Virus record (IMG/VR): IMGVR_UViG_3300044949_000144
Location: 1 to 23,401 of that record
DNA: 23,401 bases
Source: a virus
Strand: one strand, 5' to 3'
Every line of letters starts with the position of its first letter. Position 1 is the first letter of the stretch. Made by a program: the position numbers and the translations under genes. This document shows positions 13,693 to 17,997 of the stretch, one piece after another. The notes beneath the pieces were generated by a model that did not search any database, was not told the DNA's origin, and was given only the letters and a program-made list of their open reading frames with translations.

Positions 13693-13954
13693 CCCAGTTC
13701 TTCTCGGTTATCTCGGGCTTCTTTGTGGCTTGGTGCTGCGGCTCGCCTTGCCGCGACAATTTGCCTTCGCCCTTCGGTTCAATCTTAATGCTCATGTACT
13801 TGTCGCCCGTCTTTTGCGAGGACTTAATCCAAGCTGACAGGTTGTAATCTACGTTGTTGATCACCGCTGACCCACGGTAGTCGGGGCGCTTCTCGTTGCC
13901 GTCCTTGTTGTTCTTGAACAGGACGCCTTTCATGTTCGGGTCGTAATCAGGCAC
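13670..13954 (-). CDS. Small SSB-like protein with acidic C-terminal tip
   Basis: This 94-residue protein has N-terminal residues 8-60 in a small beta-rich domain (MKGVLFKNNKDGN, YRGSAVINNVDYNLSAWIK, KYMSIKIEP), compatible with a minimal OB-type or DUF736-like fold. A disordered linker (about 61-85) follows and the chain ends in NWDDLDTPF, much like the acidic Asp-Asp-x-x-Pro-Phe tip by which bacterial SSB recruits partner proteins. It lies between Erf and a nuclease, with 8-nt and 23-nt overlaps. I infer a phage single-stranded-DNA-binding role; homology to classical SSB is not evident in the fold region. Confidence 0.65.
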   Translation of the reverse strand: MPDYDPNMKGVLFKNNKDGNEKRPDYRGSAVINNVDYNLSAWIKSSQKTGDKYMSIKIEPKGEGKLSRQGEPQHQATKKPEITEKNWDDLDTPF

Positions 13955-14594
13955 GGTTCTGCTCCTTTGCTATTTGAATGTACTTCTTGATGGCTGACCG
14001 TTCCTTGGCTGTCATAGCGTCGGCTACGGCAATGTAAAGTTCATGGTCGCTGTTGATTTGGTCATGGACGCCCAACACCGCTAGCGCGATGTCCTTCTCC
14101 TCGGCGTCTAGGTCAAACGCTGCGCGGAACTGCTTAACAAACGAGTCACGCTTAACGGGGTCAACCTCCTTGCCCATATCGCCTCTAGGATCGTTCGTAA
14201 AGCCTTTACGGCCTTGGGCTGCCTCTGCGTCATCATCCACCTGTGCAAGCCCCACAATGGCCGCTAATGCGTAACGGCGGGCATAGGTGATGCCAGAGCC
14301 TTGCCCCTGCGGGCTGGCGTCTTTGGTCAGCACCGGCATCTGCCCTGCGATCCACTCGCCCGAGGCGTGAGCCAGCGTCGTGACTAGCATCAAACCTTGC
14401 TCAGTCATCTGCGTGGTCTGGATCACCGACAAGCCGTTAGCGGCTAACTGCTTACGACAAGCGTCCCAACACGACGCAAGGTCGGCGTATTTGCTTTTAA
14501 AGAACGGGTTGCTGCTGTCTTTCAGCGCACCCGTAATGTCGGCTTGCGCCTTGGACAACGCGGCGGCCAATGCGCCTATGGTTTCACTCTGCAT
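13947..14594 (-). CDS. erf: ERF-family single-strand annealing recombinase
   Basis: This 215-residue protein has the ERF hallmarks: NPFFKSKYADLASCWDACR (29-47), then SVIQTTQMTEQGLMLVTTLAH, GEWIAGQMPVL, and the signature GSGITYARRYALAAIVGL (99-116) followed by QVDDDAEAA. It anneals complementary single strands in recombination and in circularisation of phage DNA. The C-terminal 80 residues are helical and more variable. It is followed by the SSB-like protein, the usual partner for annealing. ATG 14594 lies 11 nt inside the preceding 42-residue gene, with GGAGAGAG upstream. Confidence 0.93.
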   Translation of the reverse strand: MQSETIGALAAALSKAQADITGALKDSSNPFFKSKYADLASCWDACRKQLAANGLSVIQTTQMTEQGLMLVTTLAHASGEWIAGQMPVLTKDASPQGQGSGITYARRYALAAIVGLAQVDDDAEAAQGRKGFTNDPRGDMGKEVDPVKRDSFVKQFRAAFDLDAEEKDIALAVLGVHDQINSDHELYIAVADAMTAKERSAIKKYIQIAKEQNRA

Positions 14595-15102: not shown

Positions 15103-15152
15103 ATCTGTTGCTCCTGTGTTGTGTCTATCAACGTGGGATATGTTAACCGATG

Positions 15153-15404
15153 TTATTCCGGCCCGTCAACTACTTTGTTGATAGCGGCAAGCGTGGCTTT
15201 GGCGCTGGCCTTAATTGATGGGCAAAGATCGGGGCCAAACTTGTGTGCGTAAAATTCGGCGTCCGACCAAAGCGAGTTTAGGTGCGGGTCGTCGGCGCTG
15301 ATGTAAACGTGGGTCTTGGTTCCGCGAACATCTTCGGGCGTCGGCAAGCCGCGCTCGTAATGATCCATGTAAAACTTCCAAGGGATGCGAATTAACTGCG
15401 ACAT
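15153..15404 (-). CDS. First gene of leftward operon, hypothetical (83 aa)
   Basis: This 83-residue protein starts at ATG 15404, preceded by AGAGAGG (5 nt spacing) and about 25 nt downstream of the predicted transcription start; the frame runs open further upstream but that would cross the promoter. The sequence is IPWKFYMDHYERGLPTPEDV, then KTHVYISADDPHLNSLWSDA and FYAHKFGPDLCPSIKASAKA. I recall similar small phage proteins (LPTPE...H.YI..DD...L..DAE.Y), of unknown function. As the first product of a strong promoter it is probably abundant early. Confidence 0.78.
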   Translation of the reverse strand: MSQLIRIPWKFYMDHYERGLPTPEDVRGTKTHVYISADDPHLNSLWSDAEFYAHKFGPDLCPSIKASAKATLAAINKVVDGPE

Positions 15405-15435
15405 AACTACCTCTCTGTGGTTAGCGTATGGGCGT

Positions 15436-15464
15436 ATATTAACACAAGTTACAAGCCTTGTCAA
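15436..15464 (-). promoter_or_regulatory. Strong leftward promoter (consensus)
   Basis: On the minus strand, TTGACA (15464-15459), a 17-bp spacer and TAATAT (15441-15436) form a near-perfect sigma70 promoter; transcription should start near 15429 and gives a 25-nt leader to the 83-residue gene. A dyad TAAC-ACAA-GTTA (15440-15451) overlaps the -10 region and two GCGTAT copies (15424-15429, 15432-15437; 8-bp period) cover the start site. Confidence 0.82.
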
Positions 15465-15470
15465 GCCCCC

Positions 15471-15499
15471 TTGATAAAATAGTTTACCTATGTTAATAT
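15471..15499 (+). promoter_or_regulatory. Rightward promoter of the Cro-like gene (leaderless)
   Basis: TTGATA (15471-15476), a 17-bp spacer and TAATAT (15494-15499) make a good sigma70 promoter. The expected start is about 15505-15507, i.e. at the A of ATG 15506, so the transcript should be leaderless. No Shine-Dalgarno is present before this ATG, which fits. Confidence 0.75.
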
Positions 15500-15507
15500 G
15501 CAAACAT
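15490..15507. promoter_or_regulatory. Putative repressor operator over -10 and start codon
   Basis: Dyad ATGTT-N8-AACAT covers the rightward -10 box and the start codon. Its TGTTAATAT half (15491-15499) is repeated exactly on the other strand at the leftward -10 (15444-15436), so one protein, probably the Cro-like product, may bind both promoters. Two TGTTA copies spaced 10 bp (15141-15145, 15151-15155) could be a third site. Confidence 0.5.
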
Positions 15508-15673
15508 GGACATCAATACAGCATTAAAGAAGTTTGGTTCCCCGAGCGGTATCGCACGGGCGTTTGGCGTTAAGCCCCCGGCTGTATCCAGATGGATACG
15601 CAACGGTGCGATCCCGCAGCAGCGGGTGTGGCAGTACAAGGCTGGGCTGGTCAAAGCGCCAAAAGGACGTTAG
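15506..15673 (+). CDS. Cro/YdaS-like HTH repressor (55 aa)
   Basis: This 55-residue DNA-binding protein is MDINTALKKFGSPSGIARAF, followed by the recognition helix region GVKPPAVSRWIRNGAIPQQR (21-40). The pattern FGS..IA.AFGV...AVS.W...G.IP..R is typical of small Cro-type regulators. It is divergent from the leftward operon and shares an operator-like motif with it, so it probably represses both promoters. No Shine-Dalgarno is present; the promoter places the RNA start at the ATG. A terminator-like hairpin lies 17 nt after the stop. No CI-type partner is visible in this window. Confidence 0.88.
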   Translation: MDINTALKKFGSPSGIARAFGVKPPAVSRWIRNGAIPQQRVWQYKAGLVKAPKGR

Positions 15674-15689
15674 TGGACGCTAAAACGAA

Positions 15690-15710
15690 AAGCCCCCGAG
15701 GAGGGGGCTT
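15690..15710. terminator. Hairpin terminator after the Cro-like gene
   Basis: AAGCCCCC (15690-15697), loop GAGGA, GGGGGCTT (15703-15710): a perfect 8-bp stem 17 nt after the repressor stop. The T-rich tract is on the minus-strand side (TTTTCGTTTT), while the plus strand has only TT after the stem, so it should work best against leftward transcription and perhaps partially for the repressor mRNA. Confidence 0.68.
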
Positions 15711-16051
15711 GACGCTGCCGGGGGACTGGCATTACGCTTGTTTTGCGAACTGGCGTACGAGTAGTTTAGCCCCGTCAATGGGCTTGTCAACCTACCTATA
15801 CGCCTCGGCTCATCTGGTCGGGGAAACCACGCGCAGACAGGGCTTAAATCTAGACCGGGGCAGCCAGCCTCTAGACACGCAGCGTATAGCGGGGAAGCGT
15901 GAATGGCACCGGGAAACCGGCAAATGTAGCCCGCAGCAGGGTGGCTCCGTCAGTCATCTAATCTCTGCACGATCCACGTTAGGCGTACTCCGTCTCAACC
16001 GTGCAGAGTTCACCATCAGTCATCAGTTCTAAACCATAGAGAGGTATAGAT
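15711..16051. other. Structured non-coding region
   Basis: About 340 nt have no credible gene on either strand; the only long frame has no protein-like features. It holds several hairpins: AGCCC/GGGCT (15768-15784) inside GTAG/CTAC; CCGG-GAAA-CCGG (15909-15920) with a GNRA tetraloop; and a perfect 9-bp stem CTCTGCACG/CGTGCAGAG (15963-16008). GGGAAACC occurs twice, 90 bp apart; TCAGTCATC occurs twice, flanking the 9-bp stem; TCTAGAC occurs twice. It could be a small RNA, a leader, an origin or an attachment region. Confidence 0.5.
15963..16008. repeat. 9-bp inverted repeat with flanking direct repeats
   Basis: CTCTGCACG (15963-15971) and CGTGCAGAG (16000-16008) are perfect complements around a 28-nt loop. 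TCAGTCATC at 15950-15958 and 16016-16024 flanks the structure. It ends 44 nt before the next gene. Confidence 0.65.
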
Positions 16052-16417: not shown

Positions 16418-16734
16418 GGTACAAAGCGAGGCGGGATGCGAACGATGGCCTTATTGGCCGGGCGCTACTCGCAGCCGGGTTCACCGTCCACGACTACGCC
16501 TCAAACGGCGGCGTACCAGATCGTCTCGTCGTACGGAATCTGCCCGACGGAACACCGTGGGTGTGTTGGGTAGAAATCAAGGTAGAAAAAGGAAAACTAC
16601 GCCCGAGCCAAGAAAGGTTCCAAGCGATATTTGAGCCACGCGGTGAGTTTTACGTTGCGCGTGATCCCGAGGCGACGGTGCGCGAGTTGATGGAGCGTTA
16701 TCTAGCCGCCATCAAGCCCGAGCAGCTACGTTAG
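16414..16734 (+). CDS. VRR-NUC-like PD-(D/E)XK nuclease
   Basis: This 106-residue protein has a GTG start at 16414 (GTGA overlap with the minicistron). GGVPDRLVV (32-40; D36), WVCWVEIKVEKGKLRPSQER (49-68; E54-x-K56) and the Q66 helix match VRR-NUC/Holliday-junction-resolvase-type nucleases, and the length is usual for the stand-alone phage form. It likely cuts branched DNA during replication or packaging. Its last 23 nt overlap the end of the convergent glycosyltransferase gene. Confidence 0.83.
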   Translation: MRYKARRDANDGLIGRALLAAGFTVHDYASNGGVPDRLVVRNLPDGTPWVCWVEIKVEKGKLRPSQERFQAIFEPRGEFYVARDPEATVRELMERYLAAIKPEQLR

Positions 16735-17374
16735 GCATGAGTGCTTTGCGAGCGCCTTTGTAATGCACGATAGCGGGGTCGGGATGCTGCGGCAGAAACT
16801 CGGGCAGACAGGCGTAATACGATTCAGGCAGGTCTTGCACCTTTGCCCGTTTAGCGTATTCCCGCAGAACCTCCTGATCCCCGTACCACACACGGAACTT
16901 ATCGGGCAGGACGTTGTACATCTCGGCAAGGTCAGCCCAAACGCCCCAATCGGCGGTAATCGTGCAGCAACCGACATACGGGTACACCTCGTCCAACGTC
17001 TTGCCGGTGTATTCGCTGTAATCCTGACCGCGCTGGCGTGGGTTAAACCCCGCGTCACGGTTAAATTCACGGCGGGTCATCGCAACGACGCCCTCCAGCA
17101 CGGCAGCAGGATTCACGGGATGCCGCACAATCATGTCGGTATCCATGTACATCGCTGGCTCCGACAAACCCAATTCCGCAAAGGCATTGGTGCGCCATTG
17201 CATCAAGAACTGCCGATTACCCTGCGTCACAAATACCCGCGAGACACCGGGTACGGCTGGCGTTTGGTGATCGCTGACCTGAATAATGGTCGCATCAGGG
17301 TTGTGGGCGCGAATGGAAAAAACCATCGCGGTAGGCATGGCGATGTCGTCGCCAACGTGGAAGAAAACAAACAT
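16712..17374 (-). CDS. Second glycosyltransferase, GT8-like
   Basis: This 220-residue protein is leftward in a rightward region. MFVFFHVGDDIAMPTAMVFS is the nucleotide-binding start; IIQVSDHQTPAVPGVSRV follows; MYMDTDMIV (76-84) gives the DxD motif (D78, D80); GDQEVLREYA (165-174) and VHYKGARKALMP (203-214) match the C-terminal HxxGxxK element of GT8-type enzymes. The start at 17374 has no visible Shine-Dalgarno and lies 11 bp from the divergent methyltransferase start, so its promoter must lie inside that gene. It probably works with the methyltransferase or the other glycosyltransferase on a glycan or base; the target is unknown. Confidence 0.82.
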   Translation of the reverse strand: MFVFFHVGDDIAMPTAMVFSIRAHNPDATIIQVSDHQTPAVPGVSRVFVTQGNRQFLMQWRTNAFAELGLSEPAMYMDTDMIVRHPVNPAAVLEGVVAMTRREFNRDAGFNPRQRGQDYSEYTGKTLDEVYPYVGCCTITADWGVWADLAEMYNVLPDKFRVWYGDQEVLREYAKRAKVQDLPESYYACLPEFLPQHPDPAIVHYKGARKALMPNVAARA

Positions 17375-17385
17375 AGGGAAACTAT

Positions 17386-17997
17386 ATGCTGAACGTAAAC
17401 CGAAAACGACTATCCCGTGCGATATGGGACACCCTCTTTGCTGACCTGCCTGACTTGCCGTGGCACGTTATTGAGGACTTGGAGAAGTTAGACCCTCTCC
17501 GACGTACTGGCAGCACCAACCACGCCTCCCTAATCGCCTTGTGGGCGGTTATACGGCACTTCCGACCCAAAGTTGTGGCCGAGATCGGCACTTACATCGG
17601 TAAGTCTACGTTCGTGCTGGCAAGAGAGGGCGCAGACGTACACACCTGCGACATGACGCACAACTTCAAATTGCCGCTGACCACCTTTATCACGCAGTAC
17701 CACAGCAGCAGCACCGAGATGCTCGCCAAACTAGACGGCAACATTGACCTGCTGCACCTAGACGGTCGGCTACAGCCCGACGACAAGCCGCACCTTGAGC
17801 GCCTGTTCACGCCCAACACCGTCATCACGCTAGATGACTTTGAGGGAATAGAGAAAGGCGTCTGGAACGCCATGCAGATAGACCTGTCGCAGCGCATCTT
17901 GGTGTACCCGCCCGAGCGAGAGTTGACAGAGCGTTATGCGGTGGGAGATGCTACGACTGCAATCATCCTGCCCAACTTGAGGCTGACGCCGCAATGA
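17386..17997 (+). CDS. Class I SAM-dependent methyltransferase
   Basis: This 203-residue protein has ATG 17386 after AGGGAAACTAT. The SAM-binding motif I is VAEIGTYIGKST (64-75); D89 in VHTCDMTH is the likely ribose contact; IDLLHLDGR (120-128) and VITLDDFEGIEKGVWNA (146-162) fit the small-molecule/sugar O-methyltransferase (methyltransferase_24-like) type. DNA methyltransferase motifs such as DPPY are absent. Next to a glycosyltransferase it may methylate a sugar or nucleotide-sugar product. The next gene overlaps it by 4 nt (ATGA). Confidence 0.8.
   Translation: MLNVNRKRLSRAIWDTLFADLPDLPWHVIEDLEKLDPLRRTGSTNHASLIALWAVIRHFRPKVVAEIGTYIGKSTFVLAREGADVHTCDMTHNFKLPLTTFITQYHSSSTEMLAKLDGNIDLLHLDGRLQPDDKPHLERLFTPNTVITLDDFEGIEKGVWNAMQIDLSQRILVYPPERELTERYAVGDATTAIILPNLRLTPQ

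Follow-up and report, generated by a model that had tools for sequence, protein, structure and literature searches.

A predicted leaderless cro mRNA conserved across operator changes in tailed phages without a recognisable integrase

The stretch of DNA analysed here (the window) is a 23.4-kb tailed-phage fragment (23,401 nucleotides), in the middle of which a leftward gene block diverges from a gene for a 55-residue Cro-like protein, a putative autorepressor (15506..15673, plus strand). The first leftward gene encodes an 83-amino-acid protein assigned to no family by Pfam (15153..15404, minus strand, from the ORF list), and the same operon includes an Erf-like single-stranded DNA annealing protein identified by Pfam (13947..14594, minus strand). 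The Cro-like protein scores 33.5 bits against P22_Cro (PF14549), above the cut-off of 30.2, and has solved relatives in the PDB (Xfaso 1, P22, Pfl 6 and N15 Cro). Its AlphaFold model shows a helix-turn-helix fold of the Cro type with four helices (pLDDT 84); the best fold match is N15 Cro (TM 0.65-0.69, probability 1.0), at a modest E of about 0.01.

A consensus scan placed the cro promoter at 15471..15499 on the plus strand, where TTGATA (15471-15476), a 17-bp spacer and TAATAT (15494-15499) are followed by GCAAAC and the ATG at 15506. The -10 element ends 6 nt before this ATG, and -10 spacing predicts an RNA start at A15506. Divergent from it, the leftward promoter (15436..15464, minus strand) consists of TTGACA (15464-15459), 17 bp and TAATAT (15441-15436); its RNA is predicted to start near 15429, which gives a leader of ~25 nt (15405..15429) with the Shine-Dalgarno (SD) sequence AGAGAGG (15416-15410) and an ATG at 15404. 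A second leftward promoter, TTGACG-18-TAACAT, lies at 15140..15169 (minus strand). Sequence and scan thus confirmed the promoters, spacings, SD and start codons of the first-pass annotation, including the normal leader of the opposite promoter. The SD absence that it noted for the 55-residue gene also held: anti-SD pairing is +1.5 kcal/mol for cro, compared with -6.1 for the other window genes (n = 28), most of which pair normally. Translation from another upstream codon, which it had raised as a check, is ruled out because an in-frame TAA (15494-15496) lies within the -10, leaving no upstream in-frame start before ATG 15506; the TAA recurs at this position in many relatives, and alignments of the protein family begin at residues 1-5. 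The promoter rules used follow E. coli sigma-70, with approximate weights, and may fit the host of this phage less well. Because promoter-like sites number 4 per 2.3 kb compared with 1.6 in shuffles, hexamer pairs alone are weak evidence and the comparison between relatives carries the claim.

Protein and alignment searches of IMG/VR recovered 163 cro loci, some on contigs present twice, corresponding to 86 distinct 80-nt upstream sequences and 32 clusters. The cro start codon is ATG in all 163. With a two-hexamer score that leaves the -10 free anywhere from 0 to 44 nt before the ATG, 29 of 32 clusters had the -10 of their best promoter ending 6-8 nt from the start codon (6 nt, n = 17; 7 nt, n = 8; 8 nt, n = 4), compared with 6.8% in shuffles. 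Because of their shared ancestry, the clusters are only partly independent of one another. Spacer bases vary between clades (GCAAAC, ACACAA, GGCAAA, TTTTGC, ACGAAA and others) while spacer length is fixed. At a spacing of 6 nt, transcription would normally be expected to begin at the A of the ATG; many clade II promoters, with spacers of 7-8 nt that leave room for a 1-2-nt leader, have pyrimidines directly before the ATG, the A being the first purine. Anti-SD pairing upstream of cro has a median of -2.25 kcal/mol among cluster representatives. More distant cro genes, reached through the double-pseudoknot RNA described below, keep the same layout, with TATCCT or TATTCT at 6 nt or TAACCT at 7 nt. 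The spacing conserved in divergent relatives, the missing SD and the invariable ATG lend strong support to the leaderless cro transcript proposed in the first-pass annotation, and on these sequence comparisons we regard its leaderless form as very probably real. SDs do precede cro in some places, namely the distant locus L216 (where the SD is strong), the cultured Methylophilales phage Venkman EXVC282S and three cI-carrying Pseudomonas phages with related Cro, so the leaderless state appears lineage-specific and not common to all Cro.

Predicted 14-bp palindromic operators overlap both divergent -10 elements, in keeping with the divergent regulatory arrangement suggested earlier. In the window, the motif scan placed the right operator TTTACCTATGTTAA over the cro -10 (15483..15496), the left operator TTAACACAAGTTAC over the leftward -10 (15439..15452) and a third, TTAACCGATGTTAT, at the second leftward promoter (15143-15156). 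These are the only sites in the window within one mismatch of the clade I motif TTAACnnnnGTTAA, and all three lie at predicted promoters; shuffles contain a mean of 0.43 such sites, and 1 of 200 contained three. Only this one-mismatch set is informative, as a two-mismatch scan of the window gave 7 sites against 5.9 expected, which is chance level. At least two TTAACnnnnGTTAA sites occur in 31 of 36 clade I loci and TTTAGnnnnCTAAA in none; for TTTAGnnnnCTAAA in clade II the figure is 24 of 46 loci, with TTAACnnnnGTTAA in none. The recognition helix differs in parallel, reading PPAVSRWIR in clade I and KGAVSQWVK in clade II. This linked change of operator and helix is the best evidence that Cro binds the predicted sites, and the leaderless spacing is kept through it. 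Given sites on both divergent promoters and on a third leftward promoter, the protein is probably a repressor of both its own gene and the recombination operon.

We therefore propose a course of events built from these elements. Upon phage entry, the cro and leftward promoters would fire, yielding a cro mRNA whose 5' end would lie at the AUG or within about 2 nt of it. The AUG would be used by the 5'-end (70S-type) initiation route. A Cro dimer would bind the 14-bp palindromes over its own -10 and that of the divergent recombination operon, and accumulating Cro would damp both promoters. Packing of operator, -10 and AUG into one block would give the leaderless form. The most likely role of Cro would be that of an autoregulated timer switching early genes off. 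Taken whole, a P22/N15-type Cro made from a leaderless mRNA, autoregulated and shutting off early genes, is an explanation in which we have good confidence.

The same packing could mean that leaderlessness is a by-product of placing an operator over the -10 beside the gene, the missing leader having no translational role. Operator sites end 8-9 nt before the ATG, a distance as tightly fixed as that of the -10, and this packing could by itself account for the spacing. On the other side, loci L047 and L048 have lost the right-promoter operator and still hold the -10 6 nt from the ATG, and the invariant ATG fits the AUG preference of leaderless translation (PMC9031893). We give the by-product reading a little under an even chance. 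A translational role for the leaderless cro mRNA, in the form of a differential response to ribosome state, is a hypothesis here; the MazF stress-ribosome model that underlies such ideas was not reproduced in other laboratories (PMC9031893). Dozens of natural variants, in which the predicted RNA start stays at the AUG while operator, recognition helix and spacer change, offer natural material for testing why leaderless mRNAs are so common among phage repressors.

The first-pass annotation called the locus a switch, which in the lysis-lysogeny sense now looks doubtful. Two relatives of 34,174 and 35,674 bases carry 127-bp terminal repeats and are thus probably complete. Across 10-12 records including these two, we found no integrase (PF00589), serine recombinase (PF00239) or S24 repressor. 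Nor was a second HTH_3 regulator found in related genomes, where HTH_3 matches are weak and in the window correspond to cro itself. In one of the probably complete relatives, Pfam named structural, lysis, recombination, modification and DUF1376 genes and no lysogeny gene, and none of 84,980 genomes scanned held a prophage copy. Since the relatives are without integrase and CI, an early-gene timer is likelier than a lysis-lysogeny switch, which these gene contents make unlikely at this locus; the genomes may carry a divergent, unrecognised repressor. That the phage has a temperate lambdoid switch, with CI and integrase absent from this contig only and cro as its lytic regulator, draws some support from the window being just a 23.4-kb fragment, from a lambda-like gene order (leftward recombination genes, Cro, replication-type gene) and from Pseudomonas homologues that adjoin cI. 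It is nevertheless improbable given that integrase, resolvase and S24 repressor are all missing from the two probably complete relatives (34-36 kb) as well as from seven further long ones, and that the prophage search came back empty. The locus thus presents a Cro without recognisable CI or integrase.

Less probable still is a leadered cro mRNA begun further upstream, from another promoter or by another sigma factor, with merely a poor SD. In three of the 32 clusters a slightly better hexamer pair lies 16-28 nt upstream, although the 6-nt site ranks second there and scores nearly the same. When the -10 alone is scored, three clusters move out to 23-25 nt; with the -35 included, the types of the window and of L002 come back to 6 nt. 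In a few relatives the operator contains G-rich, SD-like stretches (down to -6.6 kcal/mol), which would be relevant to a transcript begun further upstream. However, the scanned stretch of the window contains a single plus-strand promoter upstream of cro, and an upstream start would leave the conserved spacing unexplained. The idea that the 55-residue protein is a YdaS-type toxin or antitoxin and not a Cro repressor (Pfam YdaS_toxin, 29.3 bits, just below the cut-off of 30) is barely credible, as P22_Cro exceeds its own cut-off, operators change along with the recognition helix, no partner gene was seen, and a YdaS protein has itself been argued to behave like Cro (PMC8630535).

Leaderless phage repressor mRNAs are already known as a kind. 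Leaderless cI mRNAs are classical, and lambda cI is expressed from PRM as a leaderless mRNA adjoining a divergent promoter. A similar arrangement is found in CP-933P, where the leaderless repressor mRNA of paaR2 lies beside a divergent promoter (PMC8630535). In both of these systems it is the lysogeny repressor whose mRNA is leaderless, with cro or ydaS as the other arm, whereas in the window Cro itself is predicted to be leaderless. A leaderless Cro-sized case, which the first-pass annotation set apart from lambda cI, is not new, because cro and cI of PY54 were both mapped as leaderless mRNAs by RACE (PMC4488713). PY54, an N15-type telomere phage, shares with the window phage a small Cro and an mRNA starting at the AUG (predicted here); it differs in being temperate with cI, which was not found in the relatives of the window phage, and in that PY54 Cro occupies a single site (OR3) and leaves its own promoter unbound, compared with predicted sites at both promoters in the window. 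What is new is a leaderless layout conserved across operator changes that serves the only recognised repressor of integrase-free phages.

Other systems share parts of this arrangement. Venkman, whose terminase is related, has in gp19 a 55-residue Cro heading rightward genes and divergent from leftward genes, but there AAGGAG precedes cro within a leader of ~30 nt. P22 Cro and Xfaso 1 Cro belong to the same sequence family (PF14549), although the match covers only the N-terminal ~40 residues. The homologues examined in temperate Pseudomonas phages are SD-led, unlike the window cro. Rhodoferax phage P26218, which has the nearest terminase, has no annotated cro. Outside phage regulators, the C.PvuII control gene of a restriction-modification system is also small, autoregulated and expressed from a leaderless transcript beginning at the start codon (PMC2997769), but it works in an activator circuit for an endonuclease and the window Cro in a phage early operon.

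Downstream of cro, 138 loci carry a minus-strand unit consisting of TTGACA-N16/17-TAnnnT, two hairpins and a terminator-like hairpin. In the window, a scan and alignment A5 place its OOP-like promoter (TTGACA-16-TAAACT) at 15763..15790 and the predicted small RNA of ~75 nt at 15683..15756 (both minus strand), the terminator-like hairpin ending ~10 bp from the cro stop. Both hairpins vary in stem sequence and keep their pairing, by a direct count of the stems that is a lower bound for the second hairpin; an alignment with MAFFT and RNAalifold did not recover the two 5' hairpins. In its location the small RNA recalls lambda OOP, with cro on one side and, in some relatives, a DUF1376 gene on the other, but it has no overlap with cro. 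A second rightward promoter-like sequence, TTGACG-N17/18-TAnnnT, is conserved on the plus strand and faces the OOP-like promoter; the window copy, TTGACG-18-TACGCT, lies at 15709..15738 and has its key positions conserved in alignment A5. The two conserved sigma-70-like promoters (15709-15738, plus; 15790-15763, minus) have predicted starts ~12 bp apart, and the spacer of the leftward one is often a palindrome of varying sequence.

A plus-strand RNA of ~200 nt with two pseudoknots follows between cro and ORF 16052 (15807..16008 in the window). In alignment A6 its 55 pairs, pseudoknots included, are paired in 98.3% of cells; 99 cells changed on both sides, compared with 32 in shuffles, and 23 pairs showed such changes. 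A pattern scan recovered 116 stretches, with cro upstream in 61 of the 71 that could be assessed and several unrelated small genes thereafter. In Rfam, the relatives' RNAs had no match at E 0.1 and the window had only a weak sub-threshold match. The OOP-like RNA and the double-pseudoknot RNA may be part of the same control module as cro. We suggest tentatively, and with rather low confidence, that leaderless autorepressing Cro, an OOP-like RNA with its promoter opposed to a second rightward one, and the double-pseudoknot RNA constitute one undescribed conserved module that times early genes, in which loss of the leader would make repressor synthesis depend on ribosome state. Both RNAs beside cro offer a concrete new target. 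At L005:1390-1640 a different conserved, structured-looking stretch (CCCCTTGACATGGGCTAAATCTGTCAGCG...) takes the place of the double-pseudoknot RNA, and L023, L025, L044 and L049 carry a similar stretch downstream of cro; in the L003, L008 and L009 types a DUF1376-like gene comes directly after.

Elsewhere in the window, the minus-strand gene at 16712-17374, whose start region (17374-17390, minus strand) lies inside a divergent gene, was not counted as a second leaderless case because its -35 is poor. This gene lacks an SD and carries TATAGT 6 nt ahead of its ATG, an arrangement kept in relatives.
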